From Clostridia bacterium (GTDB lineage Bacteria > Bacillota > Clostridia > Oscillospirales > CAG-272): 52,283 nucleotides of DNA. This document shows, piece after piece, positions 5,820 through 25,834 of the stretch. Numbering within the stretch: the first letter of the stretch is position 1; each line of letters opens with the position of its first letter. A model generated the notes under the pieces. The model did no database searches, had not been told where the DNA came from, and saw only the letters and a list, made by a program, of their open reading frames with translations. Made by a program: the position numbers and the translations under genes. The DNA is taken from NCBI GenBank assembly GCA_017461945.1, contig JAFTSB010000008.1, positions 1 to 52,283 of the forward strand, written 5' to 3'.

Positions 5820-6764
5820 GTGGCGAACCTGTACTATGCCGATCGGATCGGAGAGATCGACGGTACAAAAAACAAGTTTCCAGAAAACTTATATCTACTG
5901 GACGACAGCTTTCACGTATTGGGAGTGCGAGAGGCTACCAACCCCGAGCGCCCTTGCCTGCGGCAGGGCGATGACTTTTTTGCTGCGTTCCCCCTGGATC
6001 CGGCAGAGGGAAACACGCTATCCCGCGCCTTGCGCTCTTTGCTGGGAGATTCCCTTTTGCTGGAGGCCGGCGGCCGCCCTGTTCTGATCGTCACCGCATT
6101 TTTTGCTCGCACCAGGACGCTGTTGGCCGTAGTACCGGAGAAGGAATTGATCCCCGTACTGGATTGTGCCGCCCATTGGGCAGATATATTGAGCGAAATG
6201 CACCTGCAATTTTCCTTGAATATGCTGGCGCGTAAATCCAAGGAGTGCTGCGAGAGCGATTATAGAACGCTCACCGGCTGGCTGCAGCGCATACAAAGCC
6301 CCGTGTTTGCACAGACGCTGACCAATCAAGGGGCTGAAGGCATCATTGCTGCTATCGCTTATCGGTTAGGAGCTGTTGCCTCGCTTTGCGGCTGTCGGCT
6401 CTCCTACGATCTGAAGGGGCTGGGGTATACGATGCTCCCTTCTGACAATATGGATCTGCTGACCGGCTTGGCCTTTTCGGTATTTATGGCCATCCGCCGC
6501 ATTGCAAGAGATCAGCAGGCTGTGATCGAGGCAGACCGCATCTATACCGACGACCCTATGCTGTATGTGATCTTTCACCGTATCCCAGACGATAGCCCCG
6601 TGGTCGAGCTGGAGGGATTGATCCATCGCGCTTCCACCACCGGCGAGACTCTATGTATGTACGACGATCCCAAAGGAACCGATATGTGCTATATCCAGTT
6701 TTCCTTTTTCCCCAAGGAGCTATCGGCACAAGGGATCAAGCATCCTCAGATCTATCGTTATTAA
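5820..6764 (+). CDS. Unknown conserved-type protein, 314 residues
   Basis: The start is GTG at 5820, eight bases after GGAGGG, downstream of a sigma-A promoter. I do not recognise the family. The protein is soluble, without a signal peptide or membrane helix. It has two halves: residues 1-120 with a strand-rich core around VLIVTAFFARTRTLLAVVPEKE, and residues 125-314, mostly helical, with a Cys pair (ECCESDY) near 141 and a stretch AIAYRLGAVASLCGCRLSYD near 175-200. The layout vaguely recalls a sensory domain followed by a degenerate kinase-like fold, but no ATP-binding motif is seen. It is transcribed alone. An AT-rich element follows the stop. Confidence 0.7.
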   Translation: MANLYYADRIGEIDGTKNKFPENLYLLDDSFHVLGVREATNPERPCLRQGDDFFAAFPLDPAEGNTLSRALRSLLGDSLLLEAGGRPVLIVTAFFARTRTLLAVVPEKELIPVLDCAAHWADILSEMHLQFSLNMLARKSKECCESDYRTLTGWLQRIQSPVFAQTLTNQGAEGIIAAIAYRLGAVASLCGCRLSYDLKGLGYTMLPSDNMDLLTGLAFSVFMAIRRIARDQQAVIEADRIYTDDPMLYVIFHRIPDDSPVVELEGLIHRASTTGETLCMYDDPKGTDMCYIQFSFFPKELSAQGIKHPQIYRY

Positions 6765-6766
6765 AA

Positions 6767-6793
6767 ATTTCCATTTTTACATACATATTTTCC
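6767..6793 (+). repeat. AT-rich element, copy A
   Basis: A 27-base element with TTTCCATTTTT near its start and ATTTTCC at its end begins three bases after the stop of the gene at 5820. A second copy with about 22 matching bases lies at 22922-22948. Confidence 0.4.
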
Positions 6794-6888
6794 AATTTTT
6801 ATATAATGATATTTCAAATTTCGTTCTATACTTTTTAATATTGGCGGTTTTTGCACAAATTTGGCCGATTTTCAAAATCCATGAAAAA

Positions 6889-6919
6889 GAAAACACCCGA
6901 GCAACGCTCGGGTGTTTTC
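6889..6919 (-). terminator. Terminator of the lipoprotein gene at 6932
   Basis: A 13-base stem AAAACACCCGAGC and its complement with a three-base loop, followed on the minus strand by a T run. Confidence 0.85.
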
Positions 6920-6931
6920 TATGTTGGTTAA

Positions 6932-7315
6932 TTAGTCGACCTTCTTGTAGGTAACAAGACCGATCTTAATGGTATCGTTTTCTTTGTCGATTTCGAAATC
7001 GTAGGTGCCCTCAACAGACTTGGTGTCGTCGTTCTCATCTTCAAAGCTGAACTTGATGTCCATGGTATCATCATCGTTCTCGATGATCTCGTACTTACCC
7101 TCGTAGGTTCTGGTCTTGGACTGGCCGAGTACCTCGCCTTCCATAGTCACGGTAACTTTGCCAAAAGAACCGAACTCGTAAGTGGTAGAGGTCTTAGCCA
7201 AACCGATGTCGAGCTCTGCCTTATAGGCGCCGCTAACCTTACCGCAGGAAGCGAGGGTTGCGCAAAGCATCACTGCAACGAGAGTGAGGCAAAGAATGCG
7301 TACAAACTTTTTCAT
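6932..7315 (-). CDS. Lipoprotein of unknown function
   Basis: The start ATG at 7315 has GGAGG upstream. The 127-residue product has a classical lipoprotein signal: Lys-Lys, a hydrophobic core, and lipobox LASC with the lipidated Cys at about residue 25. The mature part is rich in beta-strand-like alternation (TTYEFGSFGKVTVTM; YEGKYEII; KSVEGTYDF) and in Asp/Glu, resembling small lipocalin-like lipoproteins of clostridia in which each strand pair ends in a Gly-Thr-Tyr turn. It is probably anchored on the outer face of the membrane. It has its own promoter and terminator. The role is unknown. Confidence 0.75.
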   Translation of the reverse strand: MKKFVRILCLTLVAVMLCATLASCGKVSGAYKAELDIGLAKTSTTYEFGSFGKVTVTMEGEVLGQSKTRTYEGKYEIIENDDDTMDIKFSFEDENDDTKSVEGTYDFEIDKENDTIKIGLVTYKKVD

Positions 7316-7352
7316 TTTTGTTTCCTCCATTGAAGTTTTTTGGGGTACTGTC

Positions 7353-7381
7353 ATTATATCACGCTCCCCTCAAAAAAGCAA
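7353..7381 (-). promoter_or_regulatory. Sigma-A promoter for the lipoprotein gene at 6932
   Basis: On the minus strand TTGCTT (7376-7381) and TATAAT (7353-7358) are 17 bases apart. Confidence 0.75.
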
Positions 7382-7487
7382 CACTTTTTCATAAAAAAGA
7401 CGAAATTTTGTAAACAAATCAGAAGGAATTGTCACATGTTATTCTTTGTTCGGCCACAAAGCAAGCAGATTTGTCTGCGGTTGACTG

Positions 7488-8945
7488 TTATTTTCGTTCA
7501 AAGGTGGTGCCGGTGGGCGTGTCCGTCAATACAATACCCTTGGCCAGCAGCTCGGCGCGGATGCGGTCGGCCTCGGCATAATTTTTGGCCTTTTTGGCGG
7601 CGGCGCGGGCATCAATGGCCTCCTCAATGGCACGGATCTCCGGGTCATCGGAATAAACGCGAACCGCACTGGCGGCAGCGGCAGCCTTTTTGGCTTCCTC
7701 GGCAGCAAAGGCATCGGCATTCTTCAAAAGATCCAGGCAAAGCACCGTGTCAAACTCGGCAAGGGCAGCGCGCTTAGTAGCGGTATTGGCAGCAGATTTT
7801 AATACGTTATGAATGGCGGTAATAGCCAACGAGGTATTCAAATCGTTATCCAGGCCAGCCACAAACTTAGCACGCAGCTCGGCCAAGGCAGCCTCGTCTA
7901 CAGCCTCGCCCTCGGTCTGCTTCCAACCGGCGATCTTGGCAATGATCTTATTATAGGCCACCACGGCGTTGTCCAGATTCTCCCAAGAGAACACCAAGGA
8001 GCGGCGGTAGTGGGACTGCAGGCAGAAGAAGCGATAGGCAACAGGGTCATAGCCCTTTTCCTCCAACAGAGAAACCGTCAAGAACTCACCCTTGGATTTG
8101 GACATCTTGCCGCTGTCGGTATTCAGGTGCAGCACGTGCATCCAGTATTTGCACCAGGCGTGACCTAAATAGGCCTCGCTTTGTGCGATCTCGTTGGTGT
8201 GATGCGGAAAGGCGTTGTCAATACCGCCACAATGGATATCCAGATGCTCGCCCAGATGCTTCATGCTGATGCAGGAGCATTCAATGTGCCAGCCGGGATA
8301 GCCGATGCCCCAAGGAGAATCCCATTTCAACTCCTGATCATCAAACTTGGATTTGGTGAACCACAACACAAAGTCGGCCTTATTGCGCTTGTTGCCATCC
8401 TCCTCTACGCCCTCACGAACGCCAACGGCTAGATCCTCGGAGGTGAAGTCGTTGAAGATATAGTACTGACGAAGCTTGGAGGTGTCAAAATAGATGTTGC
8501 CGCCGGCCTCATAGGCAAAGCCCTTTTCCATCAGCGACTGGATCACCTTGATGAAATCGTCGATGCAGCCGGTGGCAGGCTCCACCACATCGGGGCGACG
8601 GATGTGCAGCTTTTCGCAATCGGCAAAAAAGCAATCGGTATAAAACTTGGCGATCTCCATCACCGATTTTTTTTCGCGCTTGGCACCCTTGAGCATCTTA
8701 TCCTCGCCGGTGTCGCCGTCGCTGGAAAGATGGCCCACGTCGGTGATATTCATAACGCGTTTCACGTCATAACCGCTGTAGCGCAGATAGCGATCCAGAA
8801 TATCCTCCATAATATAGGTGCGCAAATTGCCGATGTGAGCAAAGTGATATACCGTGGGGCCGCAGGTATACATGCTGACCTTGCCGGGCTCGTGTGGGAT
8901 GAAATCCTCGCGCTGATGCGTAGCGGAATTGTAAAGCTTTAACAT
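7488..8945 (-). CDS. cysS: Cysteinyl-tRNA synthetase
   Basis: This enzyme charges tRNA-Cys with cysteine using ATP in the cytoplasm. The 485 residues show the class I signature: Cys ligand and HIGH-like motif in CGPTVYHFAHIGN (residues 28-40), the zinc-site region WHIECS near 219-224 and HCGGIDNAFPHHTNE, and the KMSKSKG loop near 281. The C-terminal part is Ala-rich and helical, as is usual. The start has AAGGAG upstream. It follows cysE by 32 bases, and the pair is controlled by the T-box at 9773-10024, so cysteine synthesis and charging respond together to uncharged tRNA-Cys. No strong terminator was seen after the stop. Confidence 0.96.
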   Translation of the reverse strand: MLKLYNSATHQREDFIPHEPGKVSMYTCGPTVYHFAHIGNLRTYIMEDILDRYLRYSGYDVKRVMNITDVGHLSSDGDTGEDKMLKGAKREKKSVMEIAKFYTDCFFADCEKLHIRRPDVVEPATGCIDDFIKVIQSLMEKGFAYEAGGNIYFDTSKLRQYYIFNDFTSEDLAVGVREGVEEDGNKRNKADFVLWFTKSKFDDQELKWDSPWGIGYPGWHIECSCISMKHLGEHLDIHCGGIDNAFPHHTNEIAQSEAYLGHAWCKYWMHVLHLNTDSGKMSKSKGEFLTVSLLEEKGYDPVAYRFFCLQSHYRRSLVFSWENLDNAVVAYNKIIAKIAGWKQTEGEAVDEAALAELRAKFVAGLDNDLNTSLAITAIHNVLKSAANTATKRAALAEFDTVLCLDLLKNADAFAAEEAKKAAAAASAVRVYSDDPEIRAIEEAIDARAAAKKAKNYAEADRIRAELLAKGIVLTDTPTGTTFERK

Positions 8946-14372: not shown

Positions 14373-15752
14373 TTATCCCTTCAGCGCCCGCGCTACGGCT
14401 ACCATAATGGCACACTCCATACGCTTGCGGAACAGGTCACAGCCCTTTTCGTAAATGCCGGTCACAGAGCCGCTGGCGTGATAGGCATTGGCTGCGCAAC
14501 CGCCGGAGCAATACAATCTTGCCCAGCAATCCTTACACTCGGGGCGAGCATAAACATTGCAGGCGGCAAACTCGGCACGCACCTGGGGGTTGGTAACGCC
14601 CTCATAGACGTTACCCAGCTTAAAGCGCTCCTCGCCCACAAACTGATGGCAAGGATACAAGTCGCCCCAAGGGGTCACGGCCATATACTCGGTTCCCGAT
14701 CCGCAGCCCGAGATCCTCTTATAGATGCAGGGGCCGCCGAATAGATCGATCATATAATGATAGAAGGTAAAAGGCTTTCCTTCGGCATCGCGCTGCAGCA
14801 TCAGCTCGGCCAGCTTTTCATATTGCTGTTTCACGATCTCCATATCTGCCTCGGTCAGCTCCGAAGGGTCACCGGGGGCACAGACCACCGGCTCCATGGA
14901 CAGCTCGGTAAAGCCAAGATCCAGCATCACCTTGATATCCTCCAAAAAGTCGGGGTTGGCGTGGGTAAAGGTGCCGCGCATATAGTAGCCCTTGCCTCCC
15001 CGCGCCTCCACAAATTTCTGGAACTTGGGTACAATTCGCTCCCAGCTGCCGTTGCCGGCATAGTCCACGCGATAGCGATCGTGAATCTCCTTTCGGCCAT
15101 CCAGGCTGAGCACCACGTTGTGGCACTCCCGATTGGCAAACTCGATCACGTCGTCATCCACCAGCATACCGTTGGTAGTCAGCGTAAAGCGGAAATTCTT
15201 TCCCTTTTCCTTTTCAATGCTGCGGGCATAGGCCACCAGATCCTTGACCACCTGAAAGTTCATCAAGGGCTCGCCACCGAAAAAGTCCACCTCAAGATTG
15301 TGTCGCGTGCCGGAGTTCTCAACCAGATAATCCAATGCCCGCTTGCCCACCTCAAAGCTCATTACCGCACGGTCTCCGTGATATTTGCCTTGGCTTGCAA
15401 AGCAATAGGAGCAATTCAGGTTGCAGGTGTGTGCAATATGCAAACAGAGCGCCTTAACCACGCCTGCGGTCTTTTCCTTCAGCTTGCCGGCCATAGGGGC
15501 AAAGGTGTCGGGCACAAACAGCTTGCCCTGCTCCTTGAGCGCGGTCACATCGTCATAGCATTCTTCAATATCTGCCACAGTGATATCCGCACGATCGGCA
15601 TATTTTTCACGCATAGCGGCGATCACTTGCTCTTTGCGATTGGCCTCGTACATCGCAATGATGTCATAGGCCACCTCATCCACGGCGTGAACAGAGCCGG
15701 AGCAAATGTCCAAAACGATATTGTAGCCGCCCAGTTTATATTGATGTATCAT
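14373..15752 (-). CDS. scfB: SCIFF peptide maturase, radical SAM/SPASM
   Basis: This enzyme installs Cys-derived thioether bonds in the SCIFF peptide encoded upstream. The start ATG at 15752 has AAGGAG upstream. The 459 residues have an N-terminal peptide-recognition domain (about 1-90), the radical SAM cluster motif CNLNCSYC near 109-116 with the GGEPLMN segment near 160, and a SPASM domain with Cys-rich motifs (CGSGTEYMAVTPWGDLYPCH; CKDCWARLYCSGGC; a final Cys in KGCDLFRKRMEC) that hold two auxiliary Fe-S clusters. Length is normal. A terminator-like hairpin separates it from scfA, so it is probably made at a lower level than the peptide. Confidence 0.95.
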   Translation of the reverse strand: MIHQYKLGGYNIVLDICSGSVHAVDEVAYDIIAMYEANRKEQVIAAMREKYADRADITVADIEECYDDVTALKEQGKLFVPDTFAPMAGKLKEKTAGVVKALCLHIAHTCNLNCSYCFASQGKYHGDRAVMSFEVGKRALDYLVENSGTRHNLEVDFFGGEPLMNFQVVKDLVAYARSIEKEKGKNFRFTLTTNGMLVDDDVIEFANRECHNVVLSLDGRKEIHDRYRVDYAGNGSWERIVPKFQKFVEARGGKGYYMRGTFTHANPDFLEDIKVMLDLGFTELSMEPVVCAPGDPSELTEADMEIVKQQYEKLAELMLQRDAEGKPFTFYHYMIDLFGGPCIYKRISGCGSGTEYMAVTPWGDLYPCHQFVGEERFKLGNVYEGVTNPQVRAEFAACNVYARPECKDCWARLYCSGGCAANAYHASGSVTGIYEKGCDLFRKRMECAIMVAVARALKG

Positions 15753-15770
15753 AACAGCTCCTTTGTTCCA

Positions 15771-15809
15771 TAAAAAACGCCGCCGCGGCACCGTTGGCGC
15801 CTTGGCGGC
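15771..15809 (-). terminator. Intercistronic hairpin between scfA and scfB
   Basis: On the minus strand GCCGCC/GGCGGC encloses GGCGCC/GGTGCC around a three-base loop and is followed by G and six T. It would end most transcripts after the peptide gene and let some reach scfB. Confidence 0.8.
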
Positions 15810-16174: not shown

Positions 16175-16422
16175 TATTTTATATTGGCTATGATGGAACG
16201 AGTACCCTTTGACCTGCGCTTGCAGAGAGCCGTTGCTGGTGAAAATACGGCAGTGCAACTTTGGGAAAAAACAGTCCGGAGCCGACGGAAGAAAGCCTTT
16301 GGGTGATTAGAACCGTCCGTTCATCGCGTCAAGATGCAAATGAGAGGACCTTGCGGTCAATTTGGGTGGTATCGCGGAAGCACGTCTTTCGTCCCATGGG
16401 GGATGAAGGGCGTTTTTTGTTT
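16175..16422 (+). promoter_or_regulatory. T-box leader of aspS-gatCAB, probable Asn specifier
   Basis: The leader has an AGAGAGCC apical element, the T-box sequence TGGGTGGTATCGCGG at 16363-16377 and a terminator hairpin ending in a T run at 16412-16417. The best specifier is AAC at 16270-16272, placed as expected after GGGAAAA and followed by A and GTCCGGAG; this is an Asn codon. No GAC (Asp) is found at an equivalent site. This fits a role in which AspRS and GatCAB make Asn-tRNA-Asn. An AAC at 16257-16259 is a less likely alternative and would also read Asn. Confidence 0.88.
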
Positions 16423-16467: not shown

Positions 16468-18243
16468 ATGCTCAGAACCCACCACTGCAACGAACTGAAC
16501 ATTTCCCACATCGGGCAGCAGGTTACACTGACCGGTTGGGTGGATACCGTCCGCGACCACGGCGGCGTGTTGTTTGTAGACCTGCGTGACCATTATGGCA
16601 TTACCCAGATCGTGCTTTCCGACGATAAGATGCTTTGTGGCATCACCAAGGAGACCGTGGTATTGGTCTCGGGCGAGGTAACCAAGCGCGACGAGGACAC
16701 CGTTAACCCCAAGCTGGCAACCGGCCTTGTGGAGGTGCGTGCTGCCAAGATCGAGGTGCTGGGACCCTGTCAGCTGGGATTGCCCTTTGAGATCGATGCC
16801 TCGCACCTGACACGCGAGGAAGTGCGATTGAAGTATCGCTATCTGGATCTGCGCAATCGCCGCATTCACGACAACATCGTACTGCGTGCCAAGGTGCTTT
16901 CCTATCTCCGCGCACAGATGGAGGAGCTGGGCTTTTTGGAAATCCAGACTCCCATTCTGACCGCCTCCTCCCCCGAGGGCGCCCGTGACTATCTGGTGCC
17001 CAGCCGCAAGCACAAGGGCAAGTTTTATGCTCTGCCCCAGGCGCCCCAGCAGTTCAAGCAGCTGCTGATGACCTCGGGCTTTGACCGCTACTTCCAGATC
17101 GCCCCCTGCTTCCGCGATGAGGATGCCCGACAGGATCGTTCGCCCGGAGAATTTTATCAGCTGGATTTTGAAATGGCCTTTGCCACCCAAGAGGATGTGT
17201 TTGCCGTGGCCGAGCAGGTCGTGTACAATACTTTTAAAAAGTTCTCGGACAAAAAGGTCTCCGAGCCCCCCTTCCGCCGCATCACCTTTGCCGATGCCAT
17301 GCTGAAATACGGCACGGATAAGCCCGATTTGCGCAACCCCTTGGAGATCAAGGATCTGACCGGCTTTTTTGCCAGCCATGATTTTTTGGAGATCAATGGC
17401 CGTTCCATTCCCTTTAAAAACAAGCCCGTACGCGGCATCGTTGCCAACTATCTGGTGAAAAAGGATGGCGAGGGCGACGGCAAAAAGGCATTTGAAAAAG
17501 CCATCGACACCTATTCCCGCAGTATCGGCATGCGCTTTGGATGTGGCTATATCACCCTGGAGGAGGGCGAATACAAGGGCCCCCTGGCCAAATTCCTTTC
17601 CGAGCAAGAAAAGGCTGAGCTGACAGAGCTTTGCGGCATTGGGGAGGGCGATTCGCTGTTCTTTATCAGCGATGCACCTGCCGTGATCAACTCCTTGGCC
17701 GGCCAGATGCGTACCTGGATCGCCAGTGAACTGGGGCTGATTCGTGAGGACTCCTTTGAGTTCTGCTTTATCGTGGATTTCCCGATGTACGAGCGCAATG
17801 AGGAGAGCGGCAAGATCGATTTCACCCACAATCCCTTCTCTATGCCCCAAGGCGGCATGGAGGCGCTGACAACCAAGGATCCCTTGGACATTTTTGCTTA
17901 TCAATACGATATCGTGTGCAACGGCGTGGAGCTTTCCTCCGGTGCCGTTCGCAATCACAACCCCGAGATCATGCGTAAGGCCTTTGAGATCGCCGGCTAT
18001 GGCGAGGACGAGATCAAGAGCAAGTTCGGTGCCCTGTACACCGCCTTCTCCTATGGCGCTCCCCCTCACGCCGGCATGGCCCCCGGCGTGGACCGCATGA
18101 TCATGCTGATCGCAGGAGAAGAAACCATTCGCGATGTGATCGCATTCCCCCTCAACGGCAACGCACAGGATCTGATGATGGGCGCGCCCGGCGAGGTCAC
18201 CGAGCAGCAGCTCCGTGAGGTACACATCAAGGTTCGTGACTAA
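16468..18243 (+). CDS. aspS: Aspartyl-tRNA synthetase, probably non-discriminating (Asp/Asn)
   Basis: The 591 residues are the length of the bacterial AspRS with its inserted GAD domain. The N-terminal OB fold (GQQVTLTGWVDTVRDHGGVLFVDLRDHYG) recognises the anticodon. Class II motifs follow: motif 1 with FLEIQTPILTASSPEGARDYLVPSR, motif 2 with FRDEDARQDRSPGEFYQLDFEM, and motif 3 near the end with GMAPGVDRMIMLIAG. The start ATG at 16468 has TGGAGG upstream. It is the first gene of an operon with gatC, gatA and gatB and sits behind an Asn-type T-box, so it probably charges tRNA-Asn with Asp for amidation. A discriminating enzyme cannot be excluded from sequence. Confidence 0.94.
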   Translation: MLRTHHCNELNISHIGQQVTLTGWVDTVRDHGGVLFVDLRDHYGITQIVLSDDKMLCGITKETVVLVSGEVTKRDEDTVNPKLATGLVEVRAAKIEVLGPCQLGLPFEIDASHLTREEVRLKYRYLDLRNRRIHDNIVLRAKVLSYLRAQMEELGFLEIQTPILTASSPEGARDYLVPSRKHKGKFYALPQAPQQFKQLLMTSGFDRYFQIAPCFRDEDARQDRSPGEFYQLDFEMAFATQEDVFAVAEQVVYNTFKKFSDKKVSEPPFRRITFADAMLKYGTDKPDLRNPLEIKDLTGFFASHDFLEINGRSIPFKNKPVRGIVANYLVKKDGEGDGKKAFEKAIDTYSRSIGMRFGCGYITLEEGEYKGPLAKFLSEQEKAELTELCGIGEGDSLFFISDAPAVINSLAGQMRTWIASELGLIREDSFEFCFIVDFPMYERNEESGKIDFTHNPFSMPQGGMEALTTKDPLDIFAYQYDIVCNGVELSSGAVRNHNPEIMRKAFEIAGYGEDEIKSKFGALYTAFSYGAPPHAGMAPGVDRMIMLIAGEETIRDVIAFPLNGNAQDLMMGAPGEVTEQQLREVHIKVRD

Positions 18244-18273: not shown

Positions 18274-18555
18274 ATGGAAAAGGACACTTTGTTGCTTTTG
18301 GAGAAAGTAAACCAGCTGCACCTTGAGGATGCAGAAAAAGAAACCGTATTAACATTTTTTGCACAACAAGAGCAAAATGCTGCCATACTGGAAACCATCG
18401 ACACCACCAATACCGAGCGCATGGTGCATGTGCTACCCATTCTGACCGTGGTACGCGAGGATGTGGCCCAAAAGCTGTTCACCCGAGACGAGCTGCAAAG
18501 AGGCGCACCCGAAACCATGGACGGCTATTGGCAAGTCCCCCGCGTGGTAGAATAA
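18274..18555 (+). CDS. gatC: GatC, amidotransferase subunit C
   Basis: The 93-residue GatC bridges GatA and GatB in the tRNA amidotransferase. The start ATG at 18274 follows AAGGAGG. It has the usual helical N-terminus (LLLLEKVNQLHLEDAEKE) and the C-terminal pattern LQRGAPETMDGYWQVPRVVE that wraps GatA. Spacing to aspS is 30 bases and to gatA 12 bases, so it is part of the aspS-gatCAB transcript. The protein looks intact, although its GatA partner is unusual. Confidence 0.87.
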   Translation: MEKDTLLLLEKVNQLHLEDAEKETVLTFFAQQEQNAAILETIDTTNTERMVHVLPILTVVREDVAQKLFTRDELQRGAPETMDGYWQVPRVVE

Positions 18556-18567
18556 GGAGGGGCAGAT

Positions 18568-19671
18568 ATGAAAAACGTTTATCTGGATCAAATGATCCTG
18601 ACCACCTGCTGCCCCACCAACGCAGGCTCTAAAATGTTGGAGAGCTACGTTAGCCTTTTCAACGCAACCGTAGTGGAAAAGCTGACCGCCGCCGGTTATG
18701 AGATTGCCGGCAAGCTACCCGTTGGAGAATTTGCCATTGACCTTGTGGGTGAGACCTGCTTTCACGGCAAGGCTGACGCATCTCCCCTGCGCGATGCGAT
18801 GGGCGGGCTCTCTTTTGATGTAAACGGTGCCCCCCGCCGTGTGGCCGCGCAGAACGATCTTGTATTTGCAAAGCCGACTTACGGTATTGTTTCCCGCTTT
18901 GGCACCATCCCCGTAGCCTGCTCGGGCGAGTGCGTGGGCGTGACCGCCAAGACCGTGGCCGATTGCCGCGAGATCCTTTCTACCATTGTAGGTAAGGACG
19001 AGCGTGACGGCACGATGCACGCCGACGATGTGTGCCAAAAATCCGTAAACGGGTGTCAAAAATCCGTCAAACGGGTGGCTGTGATCCAAATGGAAGCGGA
19101 TGACCAGGTCCGCGCCCATCTGGAGGCCGCCAAGACTGAAATGGCCGCAAACGGTATTGAAATCTGCGAGATCGATGCCGGTGTGATCGGCGCTGCCTAT
19201 GCCGCTTGGAATATGCTGATGTGCGCCGAGCTGTGCAACAACGTTTCGCGCTATGACGGCATCAAATACGGCTACCGTACCAAGAATTATAAGACCCTTG
19301 ACGAGCTGTATACCAACAGCCGCACCGAGGCCTTTGGCCTGACGCTGAAGAGCGCGATCCTGTATGGTTCTGATGTGCTTTCCACTAAAAATTACATGGC
19401 CAAATATGACAAAGCCCTTCGCGTACGCCGCGTGGTGGTTGAAGCCTTTGCTGACATTTTTGCCAAAGTGGATGCCGTAATGCTGCCGGCATGCTCGAAA
19501 ATGTCTTACACCGAGGGGGATAGCCCCTTTGTTGAAAACAAGTTCACCGCTCCTGCCTCGATCACAGGCCTGCCCGCTGTGGTGATCAAGGGTGTTCAAC
19601 TGATGGGCCCCGCCTTTAGCGACGGCACACTGCTGGACCTTGCAAGGGTCATTGCAAAGGAGGGCAAATGA
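18568..19671 (+). CDS. gatA: Short GatA homologue lacking the amidase catalytic residues
   Basis: GatA normally hydrolyses glutamine and feeds ammonia to GatB, using a Lys-cisSer-Ser triad. Here the product has 367 residues instead of about 480. The start ATG at 18568 has a perfect AAGGAGG and lies 12 bases after gatC. It begins at the segment that in normal GatA follows the catalytic Lys (SKMLESYVSLFNATVVEKL at 21-39). It then lacks the GGSSGGS loop with the cis-Ser, has Ala88 (in NGAPRR) where the nucleophile Ser of GGSIRQP should be, and rejoins the family at AKPTYGIVSRFG (101-112). Later family segments (NNVSRYDGIKYGYRTKNYKTLDELY; TNSRTEAFG) are kept. There is no frame break or stop. It probably cannot release ammonia. 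Confidence 0.85.
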   Translation: MKNVYLDQMILTTCCPTNAGSKMLESYVSLFNATVVEKLTAAGYEIAGKLPVGEFAIDLVGETCFHGKADASPLRDAMGGLSFDVNGAPRRVAAQNDLVFAKPTYGIVSRFGTIPVACSGECVGVTAKTVADCREILSTIVGKDERDGTMHADDVCQKSVNGCQKSVKRVAVIQMEADDQVRAHLEAAKTEMAANGIEICEIDAGVIGAAYAAWNMLMCAELCNNVSRYDGIKYGYRTKNYKTLDELYTNSRTEAFGLTLKSAILYGSDVLSTKNYMAKYDKALRVRRVVVEAFADIFAKVDAVMLPACSKMSYTEGDSPFVENKFTAPASITGLPAVVIKGVQLMGPAFSDGTLLDLARVIAKEGK

Positions 19672-19672
19672 G

Positions 19673-21109
19673 ATGAAATTTGAAACCGTTATCGGACTTG
19701 AGGTCCACGTAGAAATGGCCACCAAGTCCAAGATCTTTTGCTCCTGCTCGGCCGAATTCGGCGGCGAGCAGAACGATCACGTCTGCCCTGCCTGCTGCGG
19801 CATGCCCGGCATGCTGCCCATTGTGAACAAGAATGTGGTCAATCTTGGTATGACCGCCGGCATGATGCTGAACTGTCACATCAACCGCACCACCACCTTT
19901 GATAAAAAAAGCTACTATTATCCCGATCTGCCCGCCGCCTATCAGACCACACAATGGTTTGCCCCCATTGCCGTAAATGGCACGGTAGAAATTGAAACCA
20001 CCAAGGGCAAAAAGGCAATTCGTATCAAGCAGATCCATATGGAGGAGGATGCCGGCAAGCTGGTGCACGACGACTGGACCGACACCACTCTGGTAGACTT
20101 TAACCGCACCAGCGTGCCCCTGATTGAGATCGTTAGCCAGCCCGACCTTTCCTCGGCCGAGGAGGTCGTAGCCTATCTGGAGCGCCTGCGCTCGCTGCTG
20201 CGTTTTGCCAAGGTTTCCGATTGTCGCATGGAGCAGGGCTCGATGCGTTGTGACGTAAACCTTTCGGTTCGTCCCGAGGGCAGCCAGGTGCTGGGTGTGC
20301 GCACCGAAATGAAGAACATGAACTCTCTTTCTGCCATTGTGCGCGCCATTGAATATGAGACTGCACGTCATATTGACGCCATTGAAAACGGCACCGAGGA
20401 GCTGGTGCAGGAAACCCGACGTTGGGATGACGTAAAGGGCAAGAGCTTGGCCATGCGCAGCAAGGAGACTGCCGGCGATTATCGCTATTTCCCCGACCCC
20501 AATGTAATGCCCATCGTCATTGACGACAATTGGTACAACGGTATTAAAAATTCGTTGCCGGAGTTCCCCGAGGTCAAGAAGGCTCGCTATACCGCAGAGC
20601 TTGGCCTTAGCGATTACGATGCCGGTATTCTGACTGACAGCCGCGCTCTTTGCGACTGCTTCGAAGCCGCATTGACCGTTTGCGGCAGCGCCAAGGAGGC
20701 AGCAAACTGGCTGATCTCCGACTGCATGAACGTGCTGAACAAAAAGCAGCTGACCGCCGATCAGCTGACGGTGAACGGCAAGGCCCTTGGCCAGCTGATC
20801 AAGCTGGTGACCGACGGCAAGGTGGGCCGCGGCAACGCCAAAAAGATTTTGGAGGTCCTGTTTGAAACGGACGTGGACCCCGCCGTATATGCCGAGGAGA
20901 ATGGGCTGATCGTTTCCAACGATACGGGCCTGATCGAAACCGTGATCAAAGAAGCCATTGCGGCAGACCCCAAGGCCGTTGCCGACTTTAAGGGTGGCAA
21001 AGAAAAAGCTTTGATGGCTCTGTTTGGCAAGTGCATGAAGCAGCTGAAGGGCAACTGCGATCCGCAGGTGCTGCGTGCGCTGCTGATTGACGAAATCAAC
21101 AAAGCATAA
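19673..21109 (+). CDS. gatB: Asp/Glu-tRNA amidotransferase subunit B
   Basis: GatB phosphorylates the side chain of Asp-tRNA-Asn or Glu-tRNA-Gln and replaces the phosphate with ammonia. The start is ATG at 19673, one base after the gatA stop, with AAAGGAGGG upstream. The 478 residues have the normal layout: METVIGLEVH-type opening (FETVIGLEVHVEM), zinc Cys pairs in CSCSAEF and CPACCGMPG, KKSYYYPDLPAAYQ, LVDFNRTSVPLIEIVSQPD, GSMRCDVNLSVRP, and the C-terminal YqeY-like helical domain with GRGNAKKILE. Length and motifs look intact, in contrast to GatA, so the transamidase step may use ammonia from another source. Confidence 0.95.
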   Translation: MKFETVIGLEVHVEMATKSKIFCSCSAEFGGEQNDHVCPACCGMPGMLPIVNKNVVNLGMTAGMMLNCHINRTTTFDKKSYYYPDLPAAYQTTQWFAPIAVNGTVEIETTKGKKAIRIKQIHMEEDAGKLVHDDWTDTTLVDFNRTSVPLIEIVSQPDLSSAEEVVAYLERLRSLLRFAKVSDCRMEQGSMRCDVNLSVRPEGSQVLGVRTEMKNMNSLSAIVRAIEYETARHIDAIENGTEELVQETRRWDDVKGKSLAMRSKETAGDYRYFPDPNVMPIVIDDNWYNGIKNSLPEFPEVKKARYTAELGLSDYDAGILTDSRALCDCFEAALTVCGSAKEAANWLISDCMNVLNKKQLTADQLTVNGKALGQLIKLVTDGKVGRGNAKKILEVLFETDVDPAVYAEENGLIVSNDTGLIETVIKEAIAADPKAVADFKGGKEKALMALFGKCMKQLKGNCDPQVLRALLIDEINKA

Positions 21110-23974: not shown

Positions 23975-25801
23975 TCACACCAGCTCCACGTGATATTCTT
24001 CAAACCAAACATCCAGCTGATACAGCCAGGCAAGTAGCTGTGGGCGCGCCATCAGCTGGCCAAACCATGTGCCGCTTTCTCCCTCCACCAGCTGCTGCAA
24101 GCGCTGACGGTTCAGATATTCTGCAAGAAAGCCCGATTGCGATAGTCGCTGTTGCAGCAATTGCAGTACGATCTGCTCGTATGCGGGATTGTGCGTTTTG
24201 GGATAGGGGCTCTTTTTGCGCCACAAGACCCGATCGGGGAGATATCCCGTCATGGCACGGCGCAAAAGCGCTTTTTCCACGCCGCCCTCAAACTTGATGC
24301 TCCAAGGAAGATTAAACACATATTCCAGAATACGGTGATCCGCAAAAGGCACGCGCACCTCCACCGCATTATACATGCTCATGCGGTCCTTGCGCGAAAG
24401 CAGGCTGGCCATAAAATAGCGCGTTGACAAAAAGGTAGCAATCCGCGCCGTGCGGTCCGCCTCGCACTCTCCCTCCAGTGTCGGGCAATCGACCGTGCTC
24501 TGACGACAAACGCCGCGCAGATAGTCCAACCCCTCCGCAGCGTGCACCAGCTCATCGCGAAACAGCCCGATACGGGTGTGTGGATCGTGCAGCCAAGGAA
24601 AGAAATCACGGTATAGCATTTCAGGGCGATAAAACCACGGATAACCACCGAAAATTTCATCGGAGCATTCACCAGAAAGCAATACCGTATGCTGATTTTT
24701 GATACATTTGCAAAAATAAAGCAGTGAGGAATCAATATCAGCCTGCCCCGGGAGATCGCGTGCCAGAACCGCCGTTTTCAGATGCTCGGCTACCGCTTGC
24801 GTGGGGGCGGTCAGCACCGTATGCGCGGTGCCCAGCTCGGCGGCCAGCGCTCCGGCAAAATCCTCATCGCTTTGGGGTTGGAACAGGGTGGCGTGAAAGC
24901 TCTCTTTGTTCCCCTCATACTCAAAGGAGTAGGTGGAAAGCGTGCGCCCCTCGCGGCGGAACTGCTCCGCCGCCACCGCCGTGATAGCCGACGAATCCAA
25001 TCCTCCGGAAAGCAGCACCGCCAACGGTACATCACTGGCAAGCTGTCGTTTCACGGCATCGCAAAACAGTTCCCGGACCGTGGCCGCTGCTGTGGCAGCA
25101 TCGTCATGGCAGGGGGCTGCCTGCAGCTGCCAATAGGGGCGTATTTTCAGCCCTGTTTCGTCCACAATAGCGGCACTGGCGGGCGGAAGCTCGTAAATAT
25201 CGCGGAATACGCCGCTGCCCGGCAAGGTCACGGGTGTGAGATAAAATAGCTGCCACAAGCCCTGCAGGTCCAGTCGGGGACGCACCTCGTCGTGCGCCAA
25301 CAGTCCTTTGACCTCCGAGGCAAAATACAGCGTGTCGCCGCAAAGAGCATAAAAAAGCGGCTTGACCCCCAAGCGATCGCGAGCAAAAAACACGCACCGT
25401 TTGCCGGGATCGTATACCGCAAAGGTAAAAATACCGTTCAAGTGTACGGGACATTTCTCGCCCCATAAAATATAACTCCAAAGCACCACCTCGGTATCAC
25501 AGGTGGTGCGAAAGGTGGCACCCATTCCCTGCAGCTTGTGCCGCAGCTCGTTGCCGTTATAGATCTCACCGTTATAAACGATGGTGTACCATTGACCGTT
25601 GTGAAAGGCGCGCATCGGCTGAGCACCGCCCTCCGGATCCATAACGGCCAGCCGATTGTGATAAAGCCCTACACCCGTTGCAAAAAATGCACCATTGGCA
25701 TCCGGGCCGCGATGTGCCAAAATTCCTCCTGCCTGCCCGACCTGTGCACCGCTGACGGCGGCGGGCCGACGAAAATTGATCATGCCATTGATCGAACACA
25801 T
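23975..25801 (-). CDS. asnB: Asparagine synthetase, glutamine-hydrolysing
   Basis: The enzyme makes free asparagine from aspartate, ATP and glutamine. The start is ATG at 25801, because the next residue Cys2 must become the N-terminal nucleophile of the glutaminase domain (MCSINGMINF). The N-terminal class II amidotransferase domain has AHRGPDANG and YNGEIYN near 30-80. The synthetase domain has the ATP loop LSGGLDSS at residues 264-271 and SGECSDEIFGGYPWF further on. The 608 residues match the family. Its presence means the cell can make free Asn, so the aspS-gatCAB pathway is not the only Asn source. No clear terminator was seen after it. Confidence 0.95.
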   Translation of the reverse strand: MCSINGMINFRRPAAVSGAQVGQAGGILAHRGPDANGAFFATGVGLYHNRLAVMDPEGGAQPMRAFHNGQWYTIVYNGEIYNGNELRHKLQGMGATFRTTCDTEVVLWSYILWGEKCPVHLNGIFTFAVYDPGKRCVFFARDRLGVKPLFYALCGDTLYFASEVKGLLAHDEVRPRLDLQGLWQLFYLTPVTLPGSGVFRDIYELPPASAAIVDETGLKIRPYWQLQAAPCHDDAATAAATVRELFCDAVKRQLASDVPLAVLLSGGLDSSAITAVAAEQFRREGRTLSTYSFEYEGNKESFHATLFQPQSDEDFAGALAAELGTAHTVLTAPTQAVAEHLKTAVLARDLPGQADIDSSLLYFCKCIKNQHTVLLSGECSDEIFGGYPWFYRPEMLYRDFFPWLHDPHTRIGLFRDELVHAAEGLDYLRGVCRQSTVDCPTLEGECEADRTARIATFLSTRYFMASLLSRKDRMSMYNAVEVRVPFADHRILEYVFNLPWSIKFEGGVEKALLRRAMTGYLPDRVLWRKKSPYPKTHNPAYEQIVLQLLQQRLSQSGFLAEYLNRQRLQQLVEGESGTWFGQLMARPQLLAWLYQLDVWFEEYHVELV

Positions 25802-25834
25802 ATTTCTCACCTCACTCCTATCCTATGAGCCGTT

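Follow-up and report, generated by a model that had tools for sequence, protein, structure and literature searches.

The stretch analysed here (the window) comprises 52,283 nucleotides of a Clostridia bacterium of the Oscillospirales and carries an aspS-gatC-gatA-gatB operon whose gatA is a real gene that, by its sequence, has no glutaminase machinery; an assembly error and a pseudogene are both rejected as explanations. We consider it probable that the operon encodes a tRNA-dependent amidotransferase that uses ammonium and keeps GatA for a structural role, and this is the best reading of the evidence as a whole. Loss of the amidase site with retention of the complex is strongly supported, and the place of the complex in tRNA-dependent asparagine synthesis is well supported by context. 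The observations that point this way are the site loss itself, its conservation and the selection acting on the gene, intact gatB and gatC, a probable T-box with an AAC specifier, His31 in the operon AspRS, and the lack of AsnRS and AsnA among relatives. GatA of characterised GatCAB produces the ammonia, which then reaches GatB through a tunnel; the short-GatA clade appears to have erased the ammonia-making site, and would let both the in vivo need for channelled ammonia and a role of GatA beyond glutaminase be tested. The features of the window are collected in Table 1.

Table 1. Coordinates of the operon, its leader and other genes discussed, as positions in the 52,283-nucleotide window.
Feature	Position	Strand	Properties
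SCIFF radical SAM maturase, upstream of the T-box	14373-15791	-	TIGR03974, 755 bits
T-box leader	16181..16399	+	RF00230, 87.6 bits (gathering score 93); specifier AAC (Asn) at 16270-16272; antiterminator motif GGTGGTATCGCG at 16365-16376
aspS, bacterial-type AspRS	16468..18243	+	591 aa; His31; NF001750, 757.8 bits
gatC, intact	18274..18555	+	93 aa; TIGR00135, 54.8 bits (cut-off 47.1); Arg61 and Asp63 conserved
Short gatA	18568..19671	+	367 aa; ATG start, ribosome site, frame unbroken
gatB, transamidase and kinase subunit, intact	19673..21109	+	478 aa; TIGR00133, 538.7 bits (cut-off 314.8)
asnB-type asparagine synthase (glutamine-hydrolysing), outside the operon	23975..25810	-	TIGR01536, 447 bits (cut-off 267)

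The original prediction had treated gatA as a real, unbroken gene separated by 12 bases from gatC and by one base from the gatB ATG, and each of these points was confirmed; because gatC ends 12 bases before gatA, there is no space upstream for the missing N-terminal part. When PDB GatA chains were compared with the short protein, the body aligned, the first ~70 residues were absent and the loop was collapsed. The product scores 141 bits against Pfam Amidase PF01425, above the cut-off of 27, and 208.3 bits against the NCBIfam equivalog TIGR00132, below the cut-off of 481.1, and the features tested place it outside the glutaminase-type GatA proteins. Alignment to S. aureus GatA (2df4), whose numbering is used for all columns below, agreed with the predicted loss of the Ser-cis-Ser-Lys site: Asp7 stands at Lys79, the loop bearing Ser154 is absent and Ala88 occupies the position of the nucleophile Ser178. 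The start, which had been placed after the catalytic Lys, had to be revised, as it lies a few residues before the Lys79 column. The losses also extend beyond the triad, with Ala263 and Asn324 at the columns of Arg358 and Asp425, residues that we take to be glutamine-binding in S. aureus GatA and equivalent to R334 and D418 of the yeast enzyme. The portion of the yeast study cited here names R334 and D418 as glutamine-binding residues (PMC4027206).

The same short form, which had been proposed for related genomes, was indeed found there. At least 70 short-GatA loci were collected, 67 of them free of in-frame stops (L115, L131 and L181 were dropped from the short set on that ground); these 67 comprise 65 distinct sequences (L121 equals L051, and L178 equals L103), and L047 is cut by a contig end. 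L058, a divergent GatA that keeps the triad, was left out of the short set, L057 and L059 were kept apart, and the count leaves aside other weak matches from the order, such as those in G063, G112, G138, G152, G179, G202 and G241. All 67 short forms carry an acid at the Lys79 column (Asp in 63, Glu in 4), compared with Lys in 35 and a gap in one of 36 full-length controls. At the Ser178 column, where the controls have Ser in 36 of 36, the short forms have Ala (38), Ser (18), Thr (9), Tyr (1) or Phe (1), so that Ala is not universal, 18 of the 67 having kept Ser. The GGSSGGS loop is unalignable in the short forms, with Ser at that column in 7/67; the Arg358 and Asp425 columns have lost their Arg and Asp in every short form, and 63 have Trp in place of Tyr309. 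Residues fixed across the short proteins, without being fixed in the controls, include, among others, Asp7 (63), Asp58 (64), Asn86 (65) and Arg91 (67/67), and 52 GatA columns are fixed in short forms and controls alike. Short proteins range from 364 to 409 aa, whereas the controls have a median of 486, a difference of about 80-120 residues.

The short form is far more widespread than the original prediction could see. Among 59 relatives searched, a GatA match occurred in 35 genomes and the short form in 11; in a draw of 394 genomes from the order, the short form occurred in 17 (scoring at least 364 bits, with the next match at 288 bits), and the two samples together place it in 15 numbered genera. 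When named genomes were scanned, at least 47 short forms were recovered among the best 80 loci; in 34 of these 47 records the title mentions a herbivore (goat, roe deer, sheep, cattle, buffalo or others), and the labels given to the records are Clostridia, Oscillospiraceae, Lachnospiraceae or the like. In a midpoint-rooted GatB tree, all 67 short-locus tips form one clade (support 0.965), to which the GatB of L059 is sister (1.0), followed by that of the catalytic L056 (0.974). Since the short clade nests among GatB of catalytic systems in this rooting, loss of catalysis is likelier than an ancestral non-catalytic state.

Several loci at the edges of the family differ in form. The short GatA of L183 (3005-4249, minus strand) has an SGGAA remnant, SDGS and a C-terminal loop, yet Asp in place of Lys79; from its sequence it looks like an intermediate, and the tree places its GatB at the first split within the short clade, with support of only 0.17. 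L059 (5860-6738, minus strand) encodes a 293-aa GatA in an aspS-gatC-gatA-gatB operon and has lost the entire nucleophile segment. One metagenome-assembled genome (MAG) holds two unlike short gatA-gatB copies (L043 and L052 in G004), one of them cut by a contig end. At L057 (contig C13 of G036, ~6335-7573, minus strand), a reduced GatA has a GatC-like N-terminal stretch and an acid at the Lys79 column, with no ATG found; its 13-kb locus shows no aspS or gatB match, a recA-like ORF was seen nearby by eye, and G036 also has a full GatA.

Decay or artefact, whether a truncated pseudogene, an assembly error or an intact GatA elsewhere in the genome, was also considered; the 85% completeness of the window genome, the in-frame stops in 3 of 70 loci and the catalytic GatA that G006 and G045 carry besides the short form all lean towards it. 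We nevertheless judge it extremely improbable. The identical form recurs in the 67 stop-free loci, the GatB proteins of short operons form a single clade, and PF01425 matches the window gatA only, so that the second GatA suggested by the original prediction was not found in this assembly (85% complete); 15 of the 17 genomes with the short form in the order draw likewise gave a single match. In five congeners, dN/dS is 0.12-0.24 for gatA, 0.05-0.10 for gatB and 0.04-0.09 for aspS, ratios that are rough, as a dS of about 1 brings synonymous sites close to saturation, and gatA dN is 2-4 times gatB dN. The gatA gene is under constraint, though looser than that on its partner genes. Decay was rejected on this range of ratios together with conservation across the 67 loci, and for the family as a whole the decay or artefact reading is refuted. 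No description of an amidase-dead GatA was found among the openly licensed papers searched, as judged on titles and the openings of abstracts.

The original prediction did not extend to the Asn T-box, the AspRS signature, the absence of AsnRS and AsnA from relatives or the asparaginase-family neighbour discussed below. The probable T-box leader scored 87.6 bits (E 9.9e-20) against RF00230, short of the gathering score of 93, a value reached by 8 of 22 related loci scanned. The AAC specifier is present in the window and in every relative's covariance-model alignment shown, and these alignments are firmer evidence for it than a regular expression. Of 61 short-GatA operons that could be tested, 60 are preceded by a T-box motif (L129 is without one), and AAC was found in specifier context in all 60, in 58 by regular expression, which is loose when taken alone, and in 2 by eye. 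The portion of a 2008 T-box survey cited here reports none upstream of amidotransferase genes and one that regulates aspS in C. acetobutylicum (PMC2494555). At L133, the T-box that precedes the aspS operon has a tRNA-Asn gene (2037-2111) immediately upstream.

His31 of the window AspRS aligns to Leu30 of E. coli, and the same His occurs in the P. aeruginosa Asp/Asn enzyme 4wj3. All 62 of the operon AspRS that were compared have it, whereas Leu is found at this position in the second AspRS of the window genome and in the E. coli and Thermus enzymes. From the Pseudomonas work, we take His at this position to mark non-discriminating enzymes, and the operon AspRS would by this signature be of the non-discriminating type. 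GatB and GatC, predicted to be intact, both score above their family cut-offs (Table 1). Residues E10, H12, E124/E125, E152, N196 and S198 of GatB are conserved with full-length systems and, taken by position, appear to correspond to the residues for ATP and magnesium that the cited part of PMC4027206 names. Eighty GatB columns are fixed in both the short-GatA and control groups, and a further nine, invariant in controls, are occupied by a different residue in the short group, perhaps through co-adaptation or simply through shared descent. The order aspS-gatC-gatA-gatB was observed in 65 of 65 loci holding all four genes, and a single ORF encodes both AspRS and GatC in 31 of 66 short operons and in 7 full-GatA controls. 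No glutaminase was seen in the window operon, and the next gene downstream lies on the opposite strand. Twelve short loci, one of them a duplicate, have a downstream, same-strand AlaX-like ORF (tRNA-synt_2c, tRNA_SAD, DHHA1), for example L050:1675-2886 (minus strand).

The route to Asn-tRNA across relatives suggests that the operon replaces the direct one. AsnA had no match in any of 23 short-GatA genomes, and AsnRS above cut-off was absent from 22 of these 23, the exception being the window genome; it was also absent from all 10 short-GatA genomes that are at least 90% complete. By comparison, AsnRS occurs in 14 of 16 relatives with AsnA and no GatA (exceptions G005 and G255), and asnA adjoins asnS by coordinates in six genomes (G002, G010, G015, G016, G197 and G284). 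Within the genus (21 genomes), GatA is found in 15, six with the short form (one of these also with the full form) and nine with the full form only; none of the 15 has AsnA, and AsnA is found in five of the remaining six (Fisher 0.0003, uncorrected for relatedness). None of the nine same-genus genomes with only a full-length GatA has AsnRS above cut-off. The order draw gave AsnA in 0 of 17 short-GatA genomes versus 242 of 377 others (p 5e-8, uncorrected for relatedness), and in genera g1, g4, g32, g79, g91, g100, g105 and g155 short-GatA species without AsnA stand beside species with AsnA.

The amidase-dead GatCAB would thus be the sole visible path to Asn-tRNA in most of these bacteria. A strong AsnB-type match is present in 7 of 11 short-GatA genomes; G033 and G045 (96-97% complete) have none, their best matches being 22-23 bits over 37-62 positions, so that no other asparagine route is visible in either genome and the amidase-dead complex appears to be their sole visible source of asparagine for protein. 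Because G045 also has a catalytic GatA, sharing of that subunit is possible there. Service to Gln-tRNA was considered for the complex and rejected on the presence of GlnRS in the window genome (675 bits) and in 10 of 11 short-GatA genomes, G045 with its catalytic GatA being the exception. The tRNA-Asn of the window genome has U1-A72, although this is not specific, since the four AsnA controls read have it too. According to the cited portion of PMC4206432, GatCAB requires the U1-A72 pair.

The window genome itself is an exception, with an AsnRS gene on another of its contigs (L061:5956-7362, minus strand; G000:C48) in addition to the asnB-type gene. Set against the enzymes of four congeners, this AsnRS shows 53-57% identity, compared with 71% for one from another genus; the composition of C48 falls inside the window's own range, which fits either a native or a foreign origin. 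Being closer to another genus than to congeners, it may derive from horizontal transfer or from contamination of the assembly (estimated at 2.58%). With AsnRS and AsnB both present, the operon would not be the only Asn-tRNA route in this genome, unless contamination accounts for the contig with AsnRS. Such redundancy, together with the lost GatA site, could be taken to mean that the complex is catalytically idle and binds or sequesters Asp-tRNA-Asn or regulates AspRS, with Asn-tRNA made otherwise. That seems very unlikely: the active-site residues of GatB are conserved, and since 22 of the 23 short-GatA genomes are without AsnRS above cut-off, no alternative Asn-tRNA route is visible in them.

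Returning to an active, ammonium-using complex, we infer both its activity and its nitrogen donor, and the following sequence of events is proposed. When Asn-tRNA is low, uncharged tRNA-Asn would bind the AAC T-box and the operon would be transcribed; the non-discriminating AspRS would make Asp-tRNA-Asn, and GatB would activate and then amidate the Asp on it. GatA, with its Ser-cis-Ser-Lys site and glutamine-binding residues gone, would hydrolyse no glutamine and would be kept as a structural subunit joining GatB and GatC, and AspRS as well. As the ammonia-producing subunit has lost its active site, the nitrogen must have another source, and free ammonium, which is plentiful in the gut, is the most likely replacement, taken up by the complex through an old ammonia path that GatA would leave open. 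In the cited part of the work on yeast GatFAB, truncating the prop of the glutaminase site raises NH4Cl-driven transamidation (PMC4027206), and typical single-domain NAD synthetases are described in the cited part of PMC3376133 as having ammonia for their physiological substrate. Points that weigh against this reading are the AsnRS and AsnB of the window genome, the higher dN of gatA, the in-frame stops in three of the 70 loci, the T-box survey cited above and the asparaginase-family neighbour discussed below, which hints at a different nitrogen source. A bolder version, which we judge less likely than not, is that the clade as a whole has a glutamine-independent system for Asn-tRNA synthesis in which the dead amidase was rebuilt as a putative ammonium port, and in which some lineages recruited a third class of the asparaginase superfamily. 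The putative port would be formed by the acids Asp7 (for Lys79) and Asp58 (for a Gly) beside a new Asn86-Arg91 motif, and the recruitment would create a hybrid of GatCAB and archaeal GatDE.

Alternatively, a separate partner amidase could make the ammonia, for example an asparaginase-superfamily neighbour acting as a bacterial counterpart of the archaeal GatD that serves GatB. Genes of the asparaginase family were found next to 19 of 70 short loci (18 of 68 once two duplicates are removed) and next to none of 36 full-GatA controls (Fisher 0.0003, uncorrected for relatedness), a comparison in which at least 1200 bases downstream of gatB were available in 65 of 70 short loci and 31 of 36 controls. 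The gene lies downstream on the same strand in 12 loci, upstream on the same strand in five and on the opposite strand in two (L133:7140-8237, L107:7122-8174 and L051:3326-4345 are examples, with 16 others), and occurs in both deep clades in differing arrangements. Among PDB sequences, GatD (1zq1) ranks third for the neighbour profile, and GGT and HGTD motifs are invariant in the 16 aligned of 19 neighbours. However, no such gene was matched in the 52-kb window or within the flanks of 51 of the 70 loci, and the catalytic Lys column of the neighbour aligns to an invariant Gln171. Six neighbours score 53-84 bits against NCBIfam GatD, below cut-offs of 310 and 324, and the L107 protein scores 98 bits against type I asparaginase (cut-off 260.5) and 82 against GatD (310), so that the neighbour appears to be a divergent asparaginase-superfamily protein scoring between the two. 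Moreover, the enzyme might just convert free Asn, unusable in cells without AsnRS, to Asp and ammonia, which are both substrates of the tRNA-dependent pathway. Overall, we regard a dedicated partner amidase as unlikely.

If the glutamine-independent system is real, it would be the only asparagine source for protein synthesis in members without AsnRS, AsnA and AsnB. The genome comparisons also show that gut Clostridia swap the asparagine route as a module, even within one genus, between AsnA with AsnRS, catalytic GatCAB and amidase-dead GatCAB, and such swapping would mislead auxotrophy predictions based on annotation.

Among known systems, canonical bacterial GatCAB shares with the window system the gene set, GatB and GatC, a homologous GatA and a tRNA-Asn with U1-A72; the window GatA differs in being shorter and lacking the Lys-Ser-Ser site and the glutamine-binding residues. 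In the Clostridium acetobutylicum system, reportedly described by Saad in 2012, GatA is said to be catalytic, and the GatCAB of Bdellovibrio, Deinococcus and Thermus is of the ordinary glutamine-dependent kind. As set out in the cited portion of PMC4206432, tRNA-dependent Asn synthesis in C. acetobutylicum likewise combines an extra AspRS and GatCAB with T-box control; Bdellovibrio, Deinococcus and Thermus also make Asn on tRNA-Asn by a non-discriminating AspRS and GatCAB, although the second AspRS of Deinococcus and Thermus is archaeal-type, unlike that of the window; and rescue of E. coli JF448, an Asn auxotroph mutated in both Asn synthetase genes, serves as a direct assay for the pathway. 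The AspRS-GatC fusion is known (NF009460, PRK12820) and resembles the fused short operons, whereas the window genes are separate. The ammonia-only NAD synthetase family offers a parallel in which members of an amidotransferase family use ammonia without a glutaminase, and the cited part of PMC3376133 describes its single-domain form as thought ancestral, whereas for short GatA loss is likelier and the dead subunit has been retained. Finally, archaeal GatDE, in which a relative of GatB is fed by an asparaginase-superfamily subunit, corresponds to the arrangement with a partner amidase, but the neighbour scores below the GatD cut-off and has Gln at the catalytic Lys column, and GatA and GatC are kept here.
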